This document shows positions 15,195-63,226 of a stretch of DNA of 64,000 nucleotides, in pieces. Origin of the DNA: Amycolatopsis viridis. Lineage in GTDB: Bacteria; Actinomycetota; Actinomycetes; Mycobacteriales; Pseudonocardiaceae. The notes beneath the pieces were generated by a model that did not search any database, was not told the origin of the DNA, and saw only the letters and a list, made by a program, of their open reading frames with translations. The stretch lies in assembly GCF_011758765.1 (NCBI RefSeq), contig NZ_JAANOU010000001.1, positions 4,650,001-4,714,000 of the forward strand, given 5' to 3'. The position numbers and the translations under genes are program-made. Each line of letters begins with the position of its first letter. Position 1 is the first letter of the stretch.

Positions 15195-16351
15195 GACACT
15201 CCCTGGTTCCGCGATCTCAGACGCGGAATGACGGACACGATTCCGGCGAGGACGAGGCCCGCGCCGACAATCCAGAGTACCGCCGTGGTGTCGAACAGCG
15301 TCACCGAGACCGCGCCGAAGCCGAGCAGGCCGGCCCACAGGTAGATCAGCAGCACCGCCCGGCGCTGCGAGTGCCCGATCTCCAGCAGGCGGTGGTGCAG
15401 GTGCATCTTGTCCGCCGCGAACGGGCTCTCGCCGCGCCGGGTGCGCCGCACCACCGCCATCAGCAGGTCGAGCACCGGCAGGAACAGCACCGCGACGACG
15501 ACCAGCAGCGGCGACAGCAGAGCCAGCGCGTCCGAGCCGCCGAACCGGGTGTAGTTGATCTTCCCGGAGGCGGAGGTGGTGGCACCGGCCAGCATCAGGC
15601 CGATCATCATCGAGCCGGAGTCACCCATGAAGATCTTCGCCGGCTGGAAGTTGTGCGGCAGGAAGCCCAGGCACGCGCCGGCCAGCGTCGCGGCGATCAG
15701 CGCCGGCGGGTACACGCCGACGTCCCCGCCCTGCGAGCGGAGCAGGCCGAGCGAGAACGCGCAGGTCGCGGCCGCTGCGATGAACCCCAGCCCCGCGGCG
15801 AGCCCGTCCAGTCCGTCGACGAAGTTCAGCGCGTTGACCAGCAGCACGACCAGCAGCACCATCAGCAGGCCGCCCTGGTTGTTGTCCAGGGTGACCACGG
15901 AACCGAGCGCGTCGCCGTTGCCGCCCCACGGCACCCAGAAGACGTTCCACTGGACACCGAAGATGACCAGGATCCCGGCGCACATGACCTGTCCGGCGAG
16001 CTTGGTCCAGGCGTCGATCTCGAACCGGTCGTCCAGGGCGCCGATCAGGACGATCACGCCACCGCCGATCAGAACACCGACCGGGTCGAGCGAGAAGTCG
16101 AACGCGCGGCGCAGCACGGGCAGCTGGTGCGCCATCGCCATCCCGCCGACAACGCCCAGGTACATGCCGACGCCGCCCATTCGCGGGATCGGGATGACGT
16201 GCACGTCGCGGGCGCGCGGGTTGGCGATCGCACCGAGGCGGATCGCCAGGCGGCGGATGACGCCCGTGAGCAGGAAGGTCAGGGTCGCGGCGATGAGGCC
16301 GACCAGGATGTACTCCCGGATCGGGAGGCCGGCGGTCGTTACGGGGGTCAT
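15191..16351 (-). CDS. wecA: MraY/WecA family undecaprenyl(decaprenyl)-phosphate sugar-1-phosphate transferase
   Basis: A 386-residue polytopic membrane enzyme of the MraY superfamily that transfers GlcNAc-1-phosphate to a polyprenyl phosphate carrier, initiating arabinogalactan-linker or other wall-glycan synthesis. Family motifs are HVIPIPRMGGVGMYLG (cytoplasmic loop 1), ALNFVDGLDGLAAGLG (metal-binding Asp cluster), FMGDSGSMMIGLMLAG and the C-terminal HLHHRLLEIGHS. It overlaps sua5 upstream and atpI downstream. WecA rather than MraY is inferred from gene order (sua5-rfe-atpI is the usual actinobacterial order). Confidence 0.9.
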   Translation of the reverse strand: MTPVTTAGLPIREYILVGLIAATLTFLLTGVIRRLAIRLGAIANPRARDVHVIPIPRMGGVGMYLGVVGGMAMAHQLPVLRRAFDFSLDPVGVLIGGGVIVLIGALDDRFEIDAWTKLAGQVMCAGILVIFGVQWNVFWVPWGGNGDALGSVVTLDNNQGGLLMVLLVVLLVNALNFVDGLDGLAAGLGFIAAAATCAFSLGLLRSQGGDVGVYPPALIAATLAGACLGFLPHNFQPAKIFMGDSGSMMIGLMLAGATTSASGKINYTRFGGSDALALLSPLLVVVAVLFLPVLDLLMAVVRRTRRGESPFAADKMHLHHRLLEIGHSQRRAVLLIYLWAGLLGFGAVSVTLFDTTAVLWIVGAGLVLAGIVSVIPRLRSRNQGVS

Positions 16352-17001
16352 CAGGCCGCGGTCTTCACCGGCGCGCCGAGCACCTCCGAGATCGCCTCGG
16401 CGCCGACCGCGCCCGCCCGGAGCAGGACGGGCTCGGCCCCGGTCAGGTCGATGACCGACGAGGGCACCGGCTCACCGCTGGGCCCGCCGTCGAGGTAGAC
16501 CGCAACCGACTCCCCCACCTGGTCCTGCGCCTCCGGCACGCTGGTCGGCGCGGGACGACCGGCGACGTTGGCACTGGAGACGGCCATCGGGCCGACGTCG
16601 CGCAGCAGCTCCAGCGCGACCGGGTGCAGCGGCATCCGCAGCGTGACGGTGCCGCGGGTGCTGCCCAGGTCCCAGCGCAGGCTCGGCGCATGCGGGAGCA
16701 CAATGGACAGATCCCCGGGCCAGAACGCCTCGATCAGCGCCCGCGCCTGCGGCGGCACGCCGAGCACCAGACCGTCTACTGTGGACCAGGAGCCGACCAG
16801 GACGCCGACGGGCAGGTCCGGTCCGCGGTGCTTCGCCCGCAGCAGCGCGCCGACGGCGGACGAGTCGAAGGCGTCCGCGCCGATGCCGTACACCGTGTCC
16901 GTGGGCAGCACGACCAGGCGCCCCGAACGCACCGCGCTCGCCGCCGCGGCCAGCCCTTCCGCCCGCGTTTCCGGACGGTTGCAGTCGTACACCGCGCTCA
17001 T
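16351..17001 (-). CDS. tsaC: L-threonylcarbamoyladenylate synthase (Sua5/TsaC)
   Basis: A 216-residue YrdC/Sua5 domain enzyme that makes threonylcarbamoyl-AMP for the t6A37 modification of ANN-decoding tRNAs. Motifs are RLVVLPTDTVYGIGADAF, the basic KHRGPDLPVGVLV loop and SSANVAGRPAPTSVPEA. The start MSAVYDCNRPE at 17001 was chosen because the longer reading frame would run through the 21-bp repeat array upstream. Its TGA overlaps the wecA ATG. Confidence 0.93.
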   Translation of the reverse strand: MSAVYDCNRPETRAEGLAAAASAVRSGRLVVLPTDTVYGIGADAFDSSAVGALLRAKHRGPDLPVGVLVGSWSTVDGLVLGVPPQARALIEAFWPGDLSIVLPHAPSLRWDLGSTRGTVTLRMPLHPVALELLRDVGPMAVSSANVAGRPAPTSVPEAQDQVGESVAVYLDGGPSGEPVPSSVIDLTGAEPVLLRAGAVGAEAISEVLGAPVKTAA

Positions 17002-17058
17002 GGGGTGAAGACTATTCCGGAGCGCGTAACGACTTGGTTGCGGGTCGCGGTCACGCTT

Positions 17059-17244
17059 CGGCCAACACACCGCCGCGACCGGCCGACACACCGCCCCATC
17101 CGGCCAACACACCGCCACGAGCGGCGAACACGGCGCGACGAGCAGCAAACACGCGGACGCGGCGTGTTGGCTGCTGCGGGCGGCGTGTTGGCCGCTCCGG
17201 GTGGTGAGTTGGCTGCTGCGGGTGGTGGGTTGGCTGCTGCGGGA
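17059..17244. repeat. head-to-head array of 21-bp-period units (array 1)
   Basis: Nine units fill the 259-bp gap between prmC and tsaC. Four 21-bp units of the type CGGCCAACACACCGCC run from 17059 to 17142, an 18-bp unit follows (17143-17160), then four 21-bp units in the opposite orientation of the type GGCGTGTTGGCYGCT run at 17161, 17182, 17203 and 17224. The two halves are mutually complementary, so the array can fold into a long imperfect hairpin. A second array of the same family lies at 60687-60875. It is not CRISPR: there are no unique spacers. Confidence 0.85.
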
Positions 17245-17260: not shown

Positions 17261-18124
17261 TCAGCCGCGGAGGGCGGTCACGAAACGGGGGCGTCCGGCG
17301 AGGTCGCGGTGGTCCTGGACGTCCGTCAGCACCTTGCGGGACGCCAGCAGCGCCGGCGCGGCCGAACCGTGCGTGTCGTCGTGTTCCACGGCCACCCCGC
17401 CGCCGGGCTTGAGCAGCCGGCAGGCGGTCGCGACGGCCTGCCGGACCACCGCCAGCCCGCCGTCCGGGGCGAAGACCGCCTGCGGCGGGTCGAAGTCGAC
17501 CACCTCGGGCGGCAGGTCCCCGCCCGGCGGGACGTACGGCGGGTTGCACACCACCAGGTCGACCAGGCCGTCCAGCTCGGCGAAGATCGTGTTGTCCCCG
17601 ACGTCGCCGGAGTACAGGCGGATCGGGGTGTCCCCCGCCGCAGCCTGCTTGTCGGCGTTGTGGCGCGCCCAGGCCAGCGCGTTCGGGTCGACGTCCACGG
17701 CGTAGACCACCGCGTCCGGCCGCTCGTGCGCGATCGCCAGCGCCAGCGCCCCGGATCCGGTGCACAAATCGACCACGACCGGGTACTGGCGGCCGTGGAT
17801 GTGCCGCAGACCCCACTCGACCAGCAGTTCCGTCTCCGGCCGGGGGATGAACACGCCGGGACCGACGTCGAGGGTGATGCCGGCGAACCCGGCCCACCCG
17901 GTCAGGTGCTGCAGCGGCACGCGCTTGGCCCGCTGCGCGACGAGCTTGCCGATGGCCTCCACCACCGGCGGGTCGACGAGCGGCACCAGCGGCAGGCGGC
18001 CGCGCTCGACACCCAGCACGTGCGCGGCGATCAGCTCGGCGTCCGCGCGCGGGGACGCCACGCCCGCATCCTCCAGGATGCGCATCGCCTCGAGGATCGC
18101 CAGTCGCAACGGTTGCCGCTTCAC
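17261..18124 (-). CDS. prmC: peptide chain release factor N5-glutamine methyltransferase
   Basis: A 287-residue SAM-dependent methyltransferase that methylates the Gln of the GGQ motif in release factors. The class I SAM fold starts at VVVDLCTGSGALALAIA, and the substrate-glutamine motif NPPY is in DLVVCNPPYVPPGG. The N-terminal helical domain (residues 1-75) binds the release factor. It starts at GTG. Its substrate gene prfA is only about 0.9 kb upstream, with an oppositely oriented hydrolase gene between them. Confidence 0.94.
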   Translation of the reverse strand: MKRQPLRLAILEAMRILEDAGVASPRADAELIAAHVLGVERGRLPLVPLVDPPVVEAIGKLVAQRAKRVPLQHLTGWAGFAGITLDVGPGVFIPRPETELLVEWGLRHIHGRQYPVVVDLCTGSGALALAIAHERPDAVVYAVDVDPNALAWARHNADKQAAAGDTPIRLYSGDVGDNTIFAELDGLVDLVVCNPPYVPPGGDLPPEVVDFDPPQAVFAPDGGLAVVRQAVATACRLLKPGGGVAVEHDDTHGSAAPALLASRKVLTDVQDHRDLAGRPRFVTALRG

Positions 18125-20415: not shown

Positions 20416-20635
20416 GGAGTCCTCTCATCGTGGCCGCCGGGTCCCCGCGCCGATCTGTCAACACGTGGGGTGAACCGGAGCCGGACGTTAGCGGGTTGAT
20501 TCTGCCAGACGCACTGACGTGCAGGTCAACGCACCCCGCACCGCGCATATTCCGGATACCGGGAGTGTACGGGTTTTGTACGGGAGCGCGGGAGCCTGCT
20601 CACCAGACCCGGACCCGCCGGGTAAGGAGGAGCCG

Positions 20636-32588: not shown

Positions 32589-32661
32589 GCCCTCGTAGCT
32601 CAGGGGATAGAGCACTGCCCTCCGGAGGCAGGTGTCGCAGGTTCGAATCCTGCCGAGGGCA
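32589..32661 (+). tRNA. tRNA-Arg (anticodon CCG)
   Basis: A complete 73-nt cloverleaf: acceptor GCCCTCG/CGAGGGC, D arm GCTC/GAGC, anticodon arm CTGCC-CTCCGGA-GGCAG with CCG at 32622-32624, short variable loop, T arm GCAGG-TTCGAAT-CCTGC and discriminator A. The 3' CCA is not encoded. It reads CGG, a common Arg codon in this GC-rich genome. A decayed integrase follows, so the gene probably served as an attachment site. Confidence 0.96.
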
Positions 32662-39183: not shown

Positions 39184-40484
39184 GCGGGCCGCCGCCGAGG
39201 ACCTGGGGCGGGACGTGGACCCCACCGGCCACCCATCCGTCCTCGTTCATCGAGGGGATGCGGTCGAAGGTGCACGAGATCGCCCGGATGTGGACGGCGG
39301 AACGGGTGCTCGACCAGCACGCGGCGGGCCTGGTCGGGCTGAGCCCCGACGTGCGCCGCCAGCTCCAGCAGGCCGCGGGCCGCGTGCCCGCCGCCAACGG
39401 CCGCCCCCGCCCCGGTGATCCCTCGGTGCTCAGCGATGCGCTGGCGCAGGGCCTCAACCGGTGGGTCGACGCGGCGGTGGATCGCCGGGCGAACCGGCCG
39501 GGGCGGGCCACCGGGAAGAATCCGGACTGGGACTTCGTCCTTGCCGGCCGGATCCACGGGAACGGCAGCTCCGTCGACCTGACCCGCTACGCCGGCCGCG
39601 ACCTGCGATTCACCAGCAGCGCGCGGGACCAGGCCGAGGGAACCGCGCAGGCGTACCGCGATCTCATCGGCCGGGAGAACGGAGTCCAGGTACGCCCGGA
39701 AACCGACGCCCGCTTCTCCTTCGGTCTCACCCGGAACCTGAAAAGCGATCCCACCGGTGCCGAGAAGGACTACTTCGATCCGAAACACCCCGACAAGAAG
39801 CGGTACTACGACGGACAGTGGATCCACGACAAGCAACGGCAGTCGTCGCGGTTCTCCCCCGAGCTGAAACGGGAATACCAACGTGAGGCGGTCTTCTTCG
39901 GCAATGACGAGCCGGTGCTTTCCCCGGAGCGGTTCAACCAGAAGCCCGAAGCGGCCATCGAGGCCATGCGGCGCGGCCCGGGTCAGGCCCTGACCCCCGG
40001 CGGTGCCGCCCTGGCGCAGGTGCGCAAGGACGACGTCCACGGCCAGCTGGGCTGGCTGGCTTCGGACGGGCACGACCACCTGCACGTCCAGTTCGCGCAC
40101 CAGCAGCGCAGCAACCTCAACTTCGCCGTGTCCCGGTCCGGGACGACGGCCCTGGCCCAGCACGCCGCCGGCCTGCAAACGTCGATCTTGCGTGCCGCCG
40201 CCCAGGCCTACCGGCCACCCCCGCCCAGCCCCATGGCACAACACGCCGCCGGCCTACAGACCTCGATCCTGCGCGCGGCCGCCCAGGCCTACCGCCCACC
40301 CCCGCCCAGCCCCATGGCACAACACGCCGCCGGCCTACAGACCTCGATCTTGCGCGCGGCCGCCCAGGCCTACCGGCCACCCCCGCAGGTATACCGGCCG
40401 CCGAGCACGATGAGCCGGTACGCGAGCGGCTTGCAGGCCTCCATCCTGCGCGCGGCGACGCAGGCGTACCGGCCACACGCCTGA
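39180..40484 (+). CDS. unknown protein with LAS-peptidase-like zinc motifs and C-terminal 27-residue tandem repeats
   Basis: A 434-residue soluble protein without signal peptide. Residues 126-133 read HGNGSSVD, fitting the HxxGx(S/A)xD zinc motif of LAS metallopeptidases (M15/M74, peptidoglycan D,D- or L,D-peptidases), and residues 298-305 read HDHLHVQF, fitting their terminal HxH motif. The segment between (FSFGLTRNLKSDPTGAEKDY and after) is unfamiliar. From residue 326 a 27-residue unit (AQHAAGLQTSILRAAAQAYR plus a Pro-rich linker) recurs four times. An N-terminal LDQHAAGL echoes the unit. It overlaps the upstream gene by 4 bp. Peptidase activity is an inference from motifs; a structural or effector role is equally possible. 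Confidence 0.6.
   Translation: MSGPPPRTWGGTWTPPATHPSSFIEGMRSKVHEIARMWTAERVLDQHAAGLVGLSPDVRRQLQQAAGRVPAANGRPRPGDPSVLSDALAQGLNRWVDAAVDRRANRPGRATGKNPDWDFVLAGRIHGNGSSVDLTRYAGRDLRFTSSARDQAEGTAQAYRDLIGRENGVQVRPETDARFSFGLTRNLKSDPTGAEKDYFDPKHPDKKRYYDGQWIHDKQRQSSRFSPELKREYQREAVFFGNDEPVLSPERFNQKPEAAIEAMRRGPGQALTPGGAALAQVRKDDVHGQLGWLASDGHDHLHVQFAHQQRSNLNFAVSRSGTTALAQHAAGLQTSILRAAAQAYRPPPPSPMAQHAAGLQTSILRAAAQAYRPPPPSPMAQHAAGLQTSILRAAAQAYRPPPQVYRPPSTMSRYASGLQASILRAATQAYRPHA
40155..40481 (+). repeat. 81-bp in-frame tandem repeat (four copies)
   Basis: Units start at 40155, 40236 and 40317 with an exact 81-bp period; a fourth, diverged copy begins at about 40410. Units 2 and 3 are almost identical at DNA level, indicating recent duplication. 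Each encodes a helix (AAGLQTSILRAAAQAY) and a linker RPPPPSP. Confidence 0.9.
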
Positions 40485-59164: not shown

Positions 59165-60657
59165 TCCTGCGCCGCCTGCTGGCCCTGCCGTCGTGGGCCG
59201 CCGACGTCCGGGTCGTCGCCGGACAGTCCGGGCTGGACAGTCCTCTCAAGACGGTCCGGGCGACCCTGGACGCCGCGGACAGCCCGGGCCCCGGCGAGCT
59301 GCTGGTGCTGGCCCGCGAACTGCGCGGCACGGACTGGCAGATCGACGCCCTGCTGCGGCGCGGCGCCGACAGCGGCGCAGCCGGCCTGCTCCTGCCGGAG
59401 GTCGAACCGCAGACCGCGACCCGGCTGCTGGCCGACCGGCTGGCGATGCCGCTGCTGGTGACCACCGCCCGGCCACTGGACCTGCTGGTCGACGCCCGGC
59501 TCATGCTCGCCGCGCCCGACCTGGACCGGGCGAACCTGGTGCTGGCGACGCATCGCGCGCTCGGCGAGCGGCCCCGGTCGCCGGAGGAGGTCGTGACGGC
59601 GCTGCGCGGGCTGCTGCGGTCACCGGTGGCGTTGCTGGACGACCGGGGCGAGCCGGTGGCCGGGGAGCTGCCGTCGGCCGGGCGGCTCCGGGTGGCCGAA
59701 CCGGTGCCGCAACGCGTCGAGCTCGACGACGGTGTCCTGCTCGCGCATCCCGCGCTGCTCGCCGGTCCGGTGCTGTGGGTGGCGGCCGAGCTGACCGGGG
59801 CGCACGCGGCGCGCGCGGACGTCGTGCCGCCCGCGCTGGCGGTCGCGGCCGGCGCGGTGCAGCGCTGGCTGCTGGCGAACCGGCTGGAGCTGGAGCGGGA
59901 CGCGCGGTCGCGGACGGCGCTGCTCGGTGATCTGCTCCGGCTGGACGCGGAGCCCGGCGCGGACCTGCGGCGGCGCGCGGCCGACGCCGGGTGGCGGCTG
60001 GGCGGCTGGCACGTGGGACTGCGCATCGGCGTGCCGTCCGGTGTGGACACCGTGGCGCGGACGACCGAGGTGGTGCGCGCACTGCGCGCGGAACAGATCG
60101 AGGCCGTGGTCGTCGAGCACGGCGACGGGTGGACCGGGTGGGTGACGTTCGACCAGGAGCCGACGGCCGAGCGCGTCCGCACGCTGGCGGCCCGGCTGCG
60201 CGCAGCGCACAAGGCGCTGCGCCGCACCCTCGGCTCACACCTCGGGGTCGGCCGGCCGCATCCCCAGCCGGACGGCCTCGCCGCGACGGTCGCCGAGGCC
60301 ACCGACGCCGCCCGGCTGGCCGCGACCCGGCCCGAATCGGGGCACTTCCTGCACGTGGACCAGCTCGGGATGGCGCAGCTGCTGCTGGAGTGGACACGCA
60401 CGGACACGTTCGAGCCGGCGGCACGGGCCCTCGTCGCACCGTTGCGCGGTGCGCCCGGTGACCTGGTGCGCACCCTCGCCACCTATCTGGACGCGGAATC
60501 GTCGATCGCCGAAACCGCCGCCGTGCTCGGCGTGCACCGCAACACGGTCGCGGCACGGATCGCCCGCATCGAACAGCTCCTCGGGGTGGACCTGTCCCGC
60601 CCGGACGACCGTCTCGCCCTGCACCTCGCCTCACGCGCCATCACCCTCGGCGACTGA
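59161..60657 (+). CDS. PucR family transcriptional regulator
   Basis: A 498-residue regulator with an N-terminal PucR domain (about 1-110), a central GGDEF-like degenerate region and a C-terminal HTH (residues about 445-498, SSIAETAAVLGVHRNTVAAR). PucR regulators control purine and ureide catabolism genes in response to pathway metabolites. Coupled to the third DUF917 gene by ATGA, it probably controls the permease-hydantoinase-DUF917 operon. Confidence 0.88.
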   Translation: MILRRLLALPSWAADVRVVAGQSGLDSPLKTVRATLDAADSPGPGELLVLARELRGTDWQIDALLRRGADSGAAGLLLPEVEPQTATRLLADRLAMPLLVTTARPLDLLVDARLMLAAPDLDRANLVLATHRALGERPRSPEEVVTALRGLLRSPVALLDDRGEPVAGELPSAGRLRVAEPVPQRVELDDGVLLAHPALLAGPVLWVAAELTGAHAARADVVPPALAVAAGAVQRWLLANRLELERDARSRTALLGDLLRLDAEPGADLRRRAADAGWRLGGWHVGLRIGVPSGVDTVARTTEVVRALRAEQIEAVVVEHGDGWTGWVTFDQEPTAERVRTLAARLRAAHKALRRTLGSHLGVGRPHPQPDGLAATVAEATDAARLAATRPESGHFLHVDQLGMAQLLLEWTRTDTFEPAARALVAPLRGAPGDLVRTLATYLDAESSIAETAAVLGVHRNTVAARIARIEQLLGVDLSRPDDRLALHLASRAITLGD

Positions 60658-60686
60658 GCCGCCGCCCCCGCCCGACCGCCCCGGAA

Positions 60687-60875
60687 CCGCCAACACACCG
60701 CCCCGCCCAGCAAACACGCCGCCACGAGCGGCAAACACGCGAGAACACCGGCGTGTTCGCCGCTCCCGCTGGCGTGTTTGCCGTTCGCGCGGGCGTGTTC
60801 GCCGCTCCCGCGCGCGTGTTCGCCGCTCCCGCTGGCGTGTTCGCCGCTCCTGTGCGCGGGTTGGCCGCCGCGGGC
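60687..60875. repeat. head-to-head array of 21-bp-period units (array 2)
   Basis: Nine 21-bp units with no phase break: three at 60687, 60708 and 60729 of the type CNGCAAACACGCCGCC, then six reversed units at 60750, 60771, 60792, 60813, 60834 and 60855 of the type GGCGTGTTCGCCGCT. Same family as the array at 17059-17244. It lies between the convergent pucR and citrate synthase genes, so it may also serve as a terminator. Because 21 is a multiple of 3, every frame encodes 7-residue repeats, giving false ORFs. Confidence 0.85.
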
Positions 60876-60899
60876 CTGGCGCCGGCTGGTGACCGGGCC

Positions 60900-62039
60900 T
60901 CAGCCCGGCACCCGGAAGCGCAGCCCCGGCTCGGCGTACTCCTCCAGCGCGTGCGCGATCCAGCCCGCGGTGCGGGCCACCGCGAAGATCGTCTCCCCGG
61001 CGTCCGCGCGCATGTCGAACGCGTGCATCATCGCGGCGAGCGCGAGGTCGATGTTGCAGAACATCTCCGCGCGCCCGGACAGCCGCTCCACCAGCTCGGC
61101 CACCACGGGGTCCGGCGGCAGCAGCGCCAGTAGCGCCTCCGCCCGCGGGTCGCGCCGCTGGTAGATCCGGTGCCCGAACCCGGGGACGCCGCCGGCGGTC
61201 CGCAGCCGCTCGGACAACGCACCCACCGGGTCCTCCCGCGCCTGCGCCAGGAACCGGTACGCCAGTGTGCTCGCCCCACCGTGGTAGTGCCCGTCCAGCG
61301 CGCCCAGCCCGGCCGACACCACCGCGTACACGTTGGCTCGCGCGCTCGCCGCCACCCGGGCGGCCACTGTGGACACCGCCAGCCCGTGGTCGGCGAGCAG
61401 GACCAGTGCGGCGTCGAGGAGATCCGGCTGCGCCCGGCGCGCGGTGAGCTTGGGCCACAGCCGCGCCCCCAGCGTTCCCCGTCCCGTGCGGCCCGGCAAC
61501 GCGTCGGCCAGTACCCCGATCAGCCGCTCCCCCGCCGCGCGCACCGCCCCTGGCGCGAGGTCGAACCGCAGCGGATCCGCCGCACCCAGCACGGCCACCG
61601 CGACCCGCAGGTGATCGGTCAGGCGCGCGGTTGCGGGCAGCGCGCCGGTGGCCGACCGCACCAGGCCGACCAGTTCCGGCGATTCCGGGAACGGCGGGCG
61701 GTCGCCCGGCTCACCCGTCCACAGGAAGTGCGTGACCGACTCGAACGACCACTGCGGCGCCAGTTCGGCGACCCGCTTCCCGCGGTAGTACACCTCGTCA
61801 CCGTCGAACCGGGTCAGCTGCGTGCGGACGCCCTCCACGACTCCCGGCTCGCGCCCACGCCCGGCCAGCCGGTCCACTTCCGCGGCCGCGAAGAGGCTGC
61901 CGCGCCGCCCGGGCTGTTTCACACTCGTCAGCAGCCCTCGGCTCGCGTATGCGTACACGGTCTCCGGCTTGACGCCCAGGCGCCGCGCGACCTCCGCCGT
62001 GGTCAGAAAGCCCTCGTCGCTCACTCTGCTCCGATTCAC
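60900..62039 (-). CDS. citrate synthase with N-terminal DNA-binding HTH domain
   Basis: A 379-residue protein. Residues about 10-60 form an excisionase/MerR-like HTH (FLTTAEVARRLGVKPETVYA); the rest is citrate synthase with the catalytic His pair in YHGGAS and GFGHRIYQ and the Asp in FCNIDLALAAMMHAF. The HTH suggests that it also regulates, most simply its own divergent promoter. GTG at 62039 or 62024 may be the start; the second has GGAG upstream. Citrate or 2-methylcitrate synthesis is likely. Confidence 0.82.
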   Translation of the reverse strand: MNRSRVSDEGFLTTAEVARRLGVKPETVYAYASRGLLTSVKQPGRRGSLFAAAEVDRLAGRGREPGVVEGVRTQLTRFDGDEVYYRGKRVAELAPQWSFESVTHFLWTGEPGDRPPFPESPELVGLVRSATGALPATARLTDHLRVAVAVLGAADPLRFDLAPGAVRAAGERLIGVLADALPGRTGRGTLGARLWPKLTARRAQPDLLDAALVLLADHGLAVSTVAARVAASARANVYAVVSAGLGALDGHYHGGASTLAYRFLAQAREDPVGALSERLRTAGGVPGFGHRIYQRRDPRAEALLALLPPDPVVAELVERLSGRAEMFCNIDLALAAMMHAFDMRADAGETIFAVARTAGWIAHALEEYAEPGLRFRVPG

Positions 62040-62059
62040 ATTGATTCAATCAATATTGA
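62040..62059. promoter_or_regulatory. overlapping palindromes in the divergent citrate synthase promoter
   Basis: ATTGATTCAATCAAT (62040-62054) is a perfect 15-bp palindrome and TCAATATTGA (62050-62059) overlaps it. TTGACA at 62056-62061 is a likely -35 for the plus-strand gene. The HTH-bearing citrate synthase is the obvious candidate binder. Confidence 0.55.
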
Positions 62060-62091
62060 CAATACTCCGTCCACATAAGGACAGTAAGGCT

Positions 62092-63226
62092 ATGACCGAA
62101 CTCATCGACGTGCCCGCCGGACTGCGGAACGTCGTCGTCACCACCACCGAGCTGGGAGACGTGCGCGGGCGCGAAGGCTTTTACCACTACCGGCAGTACT
62201 CGGCCATCGACCTGGCCCGGGCCAAGACCTCCGAGGACGTCTGGTTCCTGTTCCTGGAGGGCCGTCTCCCCGAACCCGAGGAACGCACCCGCTTCGCCAA
62301 GGAACTGGCACCGCTGCGCATCCTGCCGGCGGAAGTGCGCGAACTCCTGCCGCTGGTCGCCCGCGCCGGCGATCACCCCCTGGCCGGGCTGCGCACCGCC
62401 CTGTCCGTGCTCGCCGCGGCGCGGAACCTGCCACCGCTGTGGGACGCCGATCCGGAGCGCCGCAAGGCTGACGCGATGCTCGTCTGCGCGGTGACGCCGA
62501 CGATCCTGGCCGCGCTGCACCGCCTCCGCTCCGGGCAGGATCCGCTCGAGCCGCGCGCCGACCTCGGGGCGGCAGCCAACTGGCTGTACCTCGTGACCGG
62601 TGCGGAACCGGCGGCCGAGCACGCGCGGGCCATCGAGCAGTACCTGATCGCCACCGTGGACCACGGGTTCAACGCCTCGACCTTCACCGCACGCGTGGTG
62701 GCCTCCTGCGGCGCGGACCTGGTGTCGGCCGTCGCCGCCGCGCTCGGCGCGTTCAGCGGGCCGCTGCACGGCGGCGCACCCGACCGCGCCCTGGCGAGCC
62801 TCGACGAGATCGGCACCCCGGACCGCATCGACGACTGGGTGCGTGCCCGCATCGCCGCCGGTGACCGCATCATGGGCTTCGGGCACGCCGTTTACCGGAC
62901 GCAGGACCCGCGTGCGGTGCTGCTGCGGGACATCGCGCTCGGCCTCGGCGGCGACCTCGTCGACTTCGCCACCACCGTCGAGCGGCGGGTGGTGGAGATC
63001 CTGGCCGAGCTGAAACCGGGCCGCGAACTGTACGCGAACGTCGAGTTCTACGCCGGGGTCGTAATGGCGCTGTGCGGCCTGCCGCGCGCCCTGTTCACCC
63101 CGACGTTCGCGGTCAGCCGGGTCGTCGGCTGGTGCGCCAACGTGCTGGAACAGGCCGCCGGGTCGAAAGATCATCCGCCCGGCGGCGCGCTACGTCGGCC
63201 CGCCCGCCCCTCAGCCCTTGAGCTGA
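62092..63226 (+). CDS. citrate synthase (CitA-like) with frameshift near the 3' end
   Basis: About 377 codons of a CitA-like citrate synthase. Substrate loops are SGPLHGGAPDRAL, GFGHAVYRTQDPRA and LYANVEFYAGVVMALCG, with Glu in place of the more usual Asp as in mycobacterial CitA. At 63166-63168 an AAA run puts the last 20 codons out of frame: one A fewer gives SKIIRPAARYVGPPAPQPLS and a TGA at 63224-63226, the normal family ending. As sequenced, the frame stays open past the window edge. It is a real mutation, a sequencing error or, less likely, programmed shifting. Divergent from the HTH citrate synthase, 52 bp apart. Confidence 0.8.

Follow-up and report, generated by a model that had tools for sequence, protein, structure and literature searches.

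Intergenic tandem arrays of a 21-bp unit form a family in the genome of Amycolatopsis viridis and some of its relatives; in the sequences compared, the unit carries a conserved 8-bp core at a spacing of two helical turns, the arrays are dispersed over the genome, lie mostly at the 3' ends of genes and change in copy number at fixed sites between species. As a tentative interpretation, to which we assign slightly less than an even chance, these arrays represent lattices of putative binding sites for a sequence-specific DNA-binding protein located just behind gene ends, where they would act as BIME-like barriers or insulators. The window, that is, the whole stretch of 64,000 nucleotides that was analyzed, covers positions 4650001-4714000 of the single 5.68-Mb contig of this genome (denoted G000) and contains two such arrays. 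Tandem Repeats Finder called a 21-bp period for both, and the two-core pattern has 11 matches in the window, all inside the two arrays, with 0.01 expected from shuffled sequences.

Array 1 (17051-17244) consists of nine units in a head-to-head arrangement (5+4) and separates prmC (17261..18124, minus strand; TIGR03534, 231.6 bits, cut-off 199.1), at the 3' end of which it is located, from the downstream threonylcarbamoyladenylate synthase gene of the tsaC/sua5 type (16351..17001, minus strand; TIGR00057, 194.8 bits, cut-off 123.2). Its left arm (17051..17155, minus orientation) comprises five 21-bp units that read GCCCGGAGCGGCVAACACGCC on the plus strand, and is followed by a junction spacer of 5 bp (17156..17160), the head-to-head point, and by a right arm of four 21-bp units (17161..17244, plus orientation) ending 16 bp from the prmC stop codon. 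Array 2 (60679-60875), likewise of nine units (3+6) and head-to-head, lies between two convergent genes: the left arm of three units (60679..60741, minus orientation) starts 21 bp past the stop of a plus-strand gene that ends at 60657, the junction spacer is 8 bp long (60742..60749), and the right arm of six units (60750..60875, plus orientation) leaves 24 bp to the stop of a minus-strand gene (60900..62039) that matches citrate synthase models below their cut-offs. The initial annotation had recognized array 1 with its period, its opposed halves and its split, and the nine units of array 2; all this stands, except that array 1 starts 8 bp earlier than had been noted and that what was taken for a central 18-bp unit makes better sense as a pair of opposed units around the 5-bp spacer (8 bp in array 2). 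The equal unit number of the two arrays does not reflect a rule, given that totals range from 4 to 32 and that only 11 of the 60 arrays sampled in this genome have nine units. The order prfA - prmC - tsaC is borne out by the family models. Among the 18 loci of the genus where both genes could be placed, 14 lack an array (defined here as two or more units), and the gap measures 49-160 bp in 13 of these, the other one containing a 1-kb insertion. The remaining 4 of the 18 carry at least two units (9, 4, 9 and 2). Although G000 and the sister species G001 have identical prmC and tsaC proteins, the gap holds nine units in the former and four in the latter.

A genome-wide search found the repeat family dispersed through the genome rather than confined to the two sites of the window, as had been suspected from the two arrays. 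The 15-mer GGCGTGTTNGCYGCT has 100 exact matches in the 5.68-Mb genome, and 617 unit pairs were found with up to 3 mismatches; the reversed controls gave 0 in both cases. Our sample, which is biased toward strong arrays, comprised 55 stretches around the 15-mer matches and the first of the unit-pair matches, plus the window, and yielded 60 arrays of at least three units that account for 489 of the 617 pairs, so that the whole genome can be estimated to contain about 75 arrays. With genes called computationally by a codon-usage script, independently of the annotation, the sampled arrays occupy 31 convergent, 26 co-directional and 2 divergent gaps. From the array-free intergenic length, 9.5, 34.1 and 15.4 would be expected, respectively (p = 3.5e-14), and from the number of gaps 12.2, 37.0 and 9.9 (p = 4e-9), both comparisons being made inside stretches that had been picked for holding arrays. 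In co-directional gaps, 22 of the 26 arrays are closer to the upstream stop than to the downstream start (p = 0.0005), and in convergent gaps 29 of 32 have a stop codon no more than 30 bp away, with an overlap of a few bases in some of them. One-sided arrays show the same gene-end location as inverted ones. Sampled stretches of another Amycolatopsis genome, G010, with a minimum of two units, gave 12 convergent, 8 co-directional and 1 divergent gap, many of the arrays being farther from genes than those of G000; among 15 placed arrays of other genera, 11 are in convergent, 4 in co-directional and 0 in divergent gaps, and 4 more are at the ends of stretches. Relative to the origin (dnaA at 185.8 kb), 49 array positions are compatible with an even spread over the distance from oriC (KS p = 0.45), with 31 and 18 arrays on the two replication arms. 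A three-unit array of A. acidicola (G009, L205:3587-3649) is embedded in frame in a called gene that exceeds 2300 codons and is truncated by the end of the stretch; the repeat can thus enter coding sequence, where it is read as a 7-residue repeat.

The profile of 689 units gives the consensus GGCGTGTTBGCCGCTCCGGGC, in which strong constraint, measured by rescans with each column left unscored in turn, is confined to positions 4-11, an 8-bp core that reads G(T/A)GTT(not A)GC. A single base makes up 97-99% at core positions 4, 6, 7 and 8, 94-96% at positions 10-11 and 89% (T) at position 5, and the commonest base reaches only 57-84% at positions 12-21. With position 9 unscored, A occupies it in 2 of 1290 units from five Amycolatopsis genomes (1/688 in G000, 1/213 in G001, 0/127 in G010, 0/133 in G009 and 0/129 in G007); C, G and T are all common there in G000 and G001, and in G007, G009 and G010 there is little or no C. 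The rule does not hold family-wide because some cores in another genus (G235, G190) do have A at this position. Although an A would create a stop codon (TAG or TAA) in two frames, we rejected stop avoidance as the cause of its absence, given that TGA is tolerated in or beside the core, 60 times in 698 units at its two commonest places. Adjacent units within an arm are more alike than units from other arrays (0.715 vs 0.582), and the arms therefore grow by local duplication.

The 60 arrays of G000, with 4 to 32 units each, comprise 43 with a simple head-to-head layout, 14 that are one-sided, 1 that is tail-to-tail and 2 of mixed layout. The junction spacers look unrelated to each other in sequence, and the core-to-core distance across head-to-head junctions is 19-22 bp in 40 of 47 cases; two tail-to-tail junctions measure 21 bp. 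The arrays of G010 are also head-to-head, mostly at 23 or 12 bp. In G004 (6 of 6 clusters) and G007 (16 of 23 clusters), the tail-to-tail layout prevails, with 39 bp in 12 of the 22 simple junctions and 18-60 bp in the rest, and the outer units of these arrays often lie 1-10 bp past a stop codon. The sampled A. acidicola arrays are mostly one-sided, and two convergent gaps have one array behind each gene. The head-to-head layout is therefore not the essence of the arrays, since other Amycolatopsis species have them tail-to-tail or one-sided. The possibility that all junctions center on one identical lattice, which fits G000, had to be abandoned in view of the 39-bp tail-to-tail junctions of G004 and G007; junction distances vary by lineage, so that one common geometry across junctions is unsupported, and the regular lattice is kept only for units in the same orientation. 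Where a gene ends within 100 bp of a one-sided or tail-to-tail array, the array reads GGCGTGTT in the direction of that gene in all 12 cases of G000 and in 11 of the 15 cases of G001. A rule under which GGCGTGTT, as read in one-sided arrays, leads away from the closest gene covers most of them and fails for L142, L156, L228, L231, L038, L244 and L245; the orientation rule does not extend to head-to-head arrays. The one-sided arrays L231 (G007) and L090 (G000) occupy the gap of the same gene pair in opposite orientation relative to the genes, which suggests that they were gained independently at one gap.

Comparison with the sister species G001, in which the flanks are 92-99% identical (mostly about 96% at the nucleotide level), points to rapid turnover at fixed sites. 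The sequences on both sides were located in G001 for 50 of the 60 arrays, and 47 of these 50 gaps hold at least one unit there, the sites thus being inherited. The 50 orthologous gaps contain 606 units in G000 vs 215 in G001, with more units in G000 in 49 gaps and fewer in none, in a set of arrays picked in G000. Conversely, 18 of 20 G001 array loci fall on sampled G000 array loci, one having no match and one only a 75% match. The simple class (one-sided by direction, head-to-head or tail-to-tail) is unchanged in 37 of the 50. Beyond the sister species, where only the sampled G000 loci were compared, one of 20 G010 arrays is flanked by the same gene pair as a sampled G000 array and one more by homologs of genes near such an array; two of 22 G007 arrays share the gene pair and four more have one homologous neighbor; and none of 18 G009 and 5 G004 arrays has a flanking gene with over 70% identity to those loci. 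The array sites thus mostly differ between the more distant species. Next to array 2 (window 60700-63168), alignable DNA of G001 (L149) resumes at 63168 shortly past its own array, so that about 2.3 kb, including the citrate-synthase-like gene, has been gained or lost beside the array. The product of this gene has its best match to citrate synthase models at residues 203-370 and an N-terminal helix-turn-helix of the BldC/excisionase type at residues 11-58 (below cut-off), and might be a fusion regulator.

Within the family Pseudonocardiaceae (297 genomes), core pairs GWGTTNGC at 21 bp are most numerous in Amycolatopsis genomes G009 (620), G000 (488), G010 (380) and G007 (267), followed by G004 (171), G001 (88) and G013 (60). 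Other genera with such pairs are g17 (144 in G199, 115 in G162, 33 in G072), g10 (117 in G027), g33 (115 in G235), g5 (41 in G330, 19 in G301), g16 (37 in G354), g25 (25 in G232) and g4 (19 in G157); G011 has 19, G017 16, G229 12, G002 10 and G190 9, and the remaining genomes have 0-8, low counts including chance and coding matches. Reversed controls gave 0-4, except for 9 in G012 and 45 in G015. The distribution is very patchy, close relatives of array-bearing species lacking arrays. About 199 kb each of the array-poor relatives G003 and G006 contained no clear array and one weak cluster of at least two units each. These stretches contain some intergenic tandem repeats of other kinds; G006, which has almost no copies of the repeat, has a perfect 17-bp repeat of 10.8 copies (L402:3918-4101) and a 42-bp repeat of 6.4 copies (L403:11797-12066). 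The repeat is present on named contigs of Amycolatopsis acidicola and A. tucumanensis. In A. acidicola, arrays are found at contig ends (C10, C13, C15, C19, C111, C119 and C153), so that they seem to break the assembly and the counts there may be low. Outside the family, three consecutive cores occur in three genomes, with one match each, among 298 genomes of the order, family included. In g5, g10, g16, g17 and g33 the core is kept and the spacers differ by genus. In 13 array-bearing genomes, which were selected by their 21-bp pairs but with the control spacings left free, the GTGTTNGC core pairs comprise 1873 with a spacing of 21 bp, 32 with 13-20 bp and 590 with 22-29 bp. The last class is accounted for almost entirely (560 of 590) by two genomes of g17, G162 (509, compared with 115 pairs at 21 bp) and G199 (51, compared with 51), and among the pairs listed for them all but one are exactly 22 bp apart. 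Head-to-head junctions of G162 are estimated by eye at 33-37 or 42-44 bp.

The period and the inverted halves had initially been taken to indicate either a protein on one face of the DNA or a large RNA hairpin. Conservation of the 21-bp core spacing while the spacers diverge favors the protein, and the hairpin is not general because 14 of 60 arrays have a single orientation. Once transcribed, inverted arrays could nevertheless form long hairpins, with a role in ending transcription or in protecting the 3' ends of mRNA, an explanation that we consider unlikely, at about one chance in five. The predominance of inverted arrays speaks for it, as do the strong predicted folds of array 1 (z -5.7), array 2 (z -2.3) and 12 of 37 inverted arrays (mean z -5.5 and -6.9 on the two strands), although strong folding must follow from inversion. 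For thirteen one-sided arrays, z averaged -0.8 on one strand and -2.6 on the other (20 shuffles each); 8 of them show no z below -3 on either strand, but 5 have at least one strand at -3.9 or lower, with two values near -9. A one-sided array of 18 units has z -6.1. The idea that one-sided arrays fold on one strand by G-U pairing found no support as a rule, the other strand folding better on average. A hairpin followed by a T-rich stretch was detected by a simple scan at 30 of 88 array-bearing gene ends vs 3 of 91 others (gaps of at least 60 bp) and is probably formed by the array itself; the reading of GGCGTGTT in gene direction would also suit an element acting in RNA. Against this, the similarity of mirror partners exceeds that of non-partners by only 0.01-0.04 in each of four species sets (0.551/0.540, 0.577/0.548, 0.657/0.628 and 0.549/0.513), the unit numbers of the two arms are negatively correlated (rho -0.42, 43 arrays), and the core is kept although RNA pairing would permit any complementary change. 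Because there is hardly any covariation between arms and a strong fold is missing from 8 of 13 one-sided arrays, the RNA hairpin is not the common denominator, and for the same reasons, together with the unmatched arm sizes, we prefer recognition at the DNA level. Rfam models had two matches in the window, both elsewhere, and none at the arrays at the gathering threshold.

Somewhat better placed, at roughly one chance in four, is the possibility that the units are selfish satellite-like repeats, amplified and dispersed by an enzyme that recognizes the 8-bp core and retained at 3' ends as the places of least harm. Such an origin would account for the patchy distribution, the fast change in copy number between G000 and G001, the independent growth of arms, the few sites common to different species and the avoidance of divergent gaps, as purifying selection would give. 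It sits less well with the placement of convergent arrays within 30 bp of stop codons, tighter than harmlessness needs (though the gaps are short), with a spacing that stays at 21 or 22 bp even as spacers diverge between genera, and with the absence of a REP-type Y1 transposase from the array-rich species of the genus; plasmid records contained no match to array 1 and phage records none to array 2, and the matches listed in a viral scan were mostly single ones, uninformative on this point. We regard as very improbable that the arrays are recognition sites of an FtsK/TraB-type DNA translocase. The clt/TRS sites of actinomycete conjugative elements are 8-bp direct repeats read by an FtsK-gamma-like domain of the element, and the core resembles them in being 8 bp long and directly repeated, but location at gene ends and occurrence in both orientations are unexpected for a directional loading site, and no plasmid DNA similar to array 1 was found. 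Least probable of all, if only by a little, is that the units are remnants of a duplicated coding repeat, with seven codons per unit, or a sequence selected to be free of stops. The 21-bp length, the in-frame A. acidicola array and the stop codons that an A at position 9 would create fit this idea, as does the openness of reading frames (mean 4.7 of six per array vs 4.1 in dinucleotide shuffles, highest of 50 shuffles 4.35; all six open in 24 of 60 arrays). But frame openness mostly follows base composition, TGA is tolerated, T and G are equally common at position 9, against the expected codon bias, and all 60 sampled arrays, which might have been codon-biased gene remnants, lie between called genes.

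Under the preferred interpretation of the arrays as protein-binding lattices, the candidate protein would recognize the 8-bp core, and the remaining 13 bp would mostly set the distance, placing the sites two helical turns apart on one side of the helix (21 bp and, in one genus, partly 22 bp); repeated protein sites on one face require just such a two-turn spacing, with the spacer sequence left free. Several copies of the protein side by side would form a roadblock or insulator, stopping read-through and keeping neighboring transcription units, above all convergent ones, apart from each other. We infer that the protein would act on DNA rather than RNA and affect transcription or supercoiling; a barrier or insulator was chosen because the arrays sit at gene ends. 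It would not be a general terminator or insulator, since only an estimated 75 or so gene ends carry an array. Several observations weigh against such a lattice: exact 21-bp steps within one array could arise from tandem duplication alone, close relatives have no arrays, most sites are not shared, array orientation is lineage-specific, and the five strongly folding one-sided arrays need to be accommodated. A bolder version, in which an architectural protein of Pseudonocardiaceae reads GWGTTBGC two turns apart and builds polymer-like roadblocks on arrays that grow, shrink and reorient between species, appears doubtful, with little more than one chance in five; if true, it would constitute a hitherto undescribed sequence-addressed bacterial insulator or roadblock terminator.

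The closest known counterparts are the REP/BIME elements of gamma-proteobacteria and other bacteria, described in the relevant passages of PMC3733652 as hundreds of dispersed extragenic units, many of them opposed, located downstream of genes in convergent and co-directional gaps; CGTC REPs also occur without a dedicated Y1 transposase (the same passages), and BIMEs bind several proteins (PMC2817692). Binding of gyrase, IHF or further proteins is one of the features of this class. The arrays resemble them in having over 100 extragenic copies downstream of coding regions in the same classes of gaps, but the 689-unit consensus lacks a GTAG/CGTC tag and is not palindromic beyond GGC/GCC, and the arrays are long direct tandems with a fixed 21-22 bp period, an 8-bp core and free spacers. 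A RAYT-type Y1 transposase (PF01797) is absent from 18 of 19 genomes of the genus, the sole match being in the array-poor G012. Lacking such a gene in array-rich members and a tagged palindrome, the arrays cannot be assigned to the REP/RAYT class, and in our best reading of the comparisons made they would work like BIME elements without belonging to REP/BIME. As in bacterial satellite or VNTR families, at least as these are portrayed in parts of PMC6749651, the arrays are tandem, dispersed and fast-changing in copy number; unlike satellites described there, they combine a strongly constrained core with a strict two-turn spacing and a location at 3' ends. For A. mediterranei, a table row in the same survey appears to list 23 satellites, with no such family described in the accompanying passages, and the passages of PMC3733652 and PMC12306157 likewise make no mention of such arrays. 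Neither are they described in the titles and abstract openings of the mostly non-subscription literature covered, and text searches for six 12-mers of the unit returned nine matches that look unrelated by title.

Intrinsic bidirectional terminators also lie behind stop codons and between convergent genes and have an A-rich, stem, T-rich layout. The arrays share the location and, at some junctions, the layout; unlike these terminators, they include one-sided forms, arm covariation is nearly absent, and a stable hairpin is not present in every member, 8 of the 13 one-sided arrays having no strong structure on either strand. The DNA uptake sequences of Neisseria are a dispersed short word, often inverted at gene ends; the arrays are similar in this respect but differ in being phased in tandem. 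Collectively, the arrays look like an undescribed docking array for a DNA-binding protein in Amycolatopsis and some relatives. To our knowledge, transcription ending and insulation between convergent genes are poorly understood in high-GC actinomycetes, where, as the simple scan indicates, hairpins with T-rich tails are rare at array-free gene ends. The natural variants (head-to-head, tail-to-tail and one-sided arrays, 4 to 32 units, a sister species that has roughly one third of the units at the same sites) make a DNA-bound roadblock directly testable and, if the interpretation is true, actinomycete engineering would gain a useful part, a compact bidirectional insulator.

In addition to the two arrays, the window contains an 81-bp tandem repeat of another kind (40153-40386, 2.9 copies, 92% alike), an actinobacterial ribosomal protein L31 leader on the minus strand (20432-20484) and a tRNA (32589-32661).
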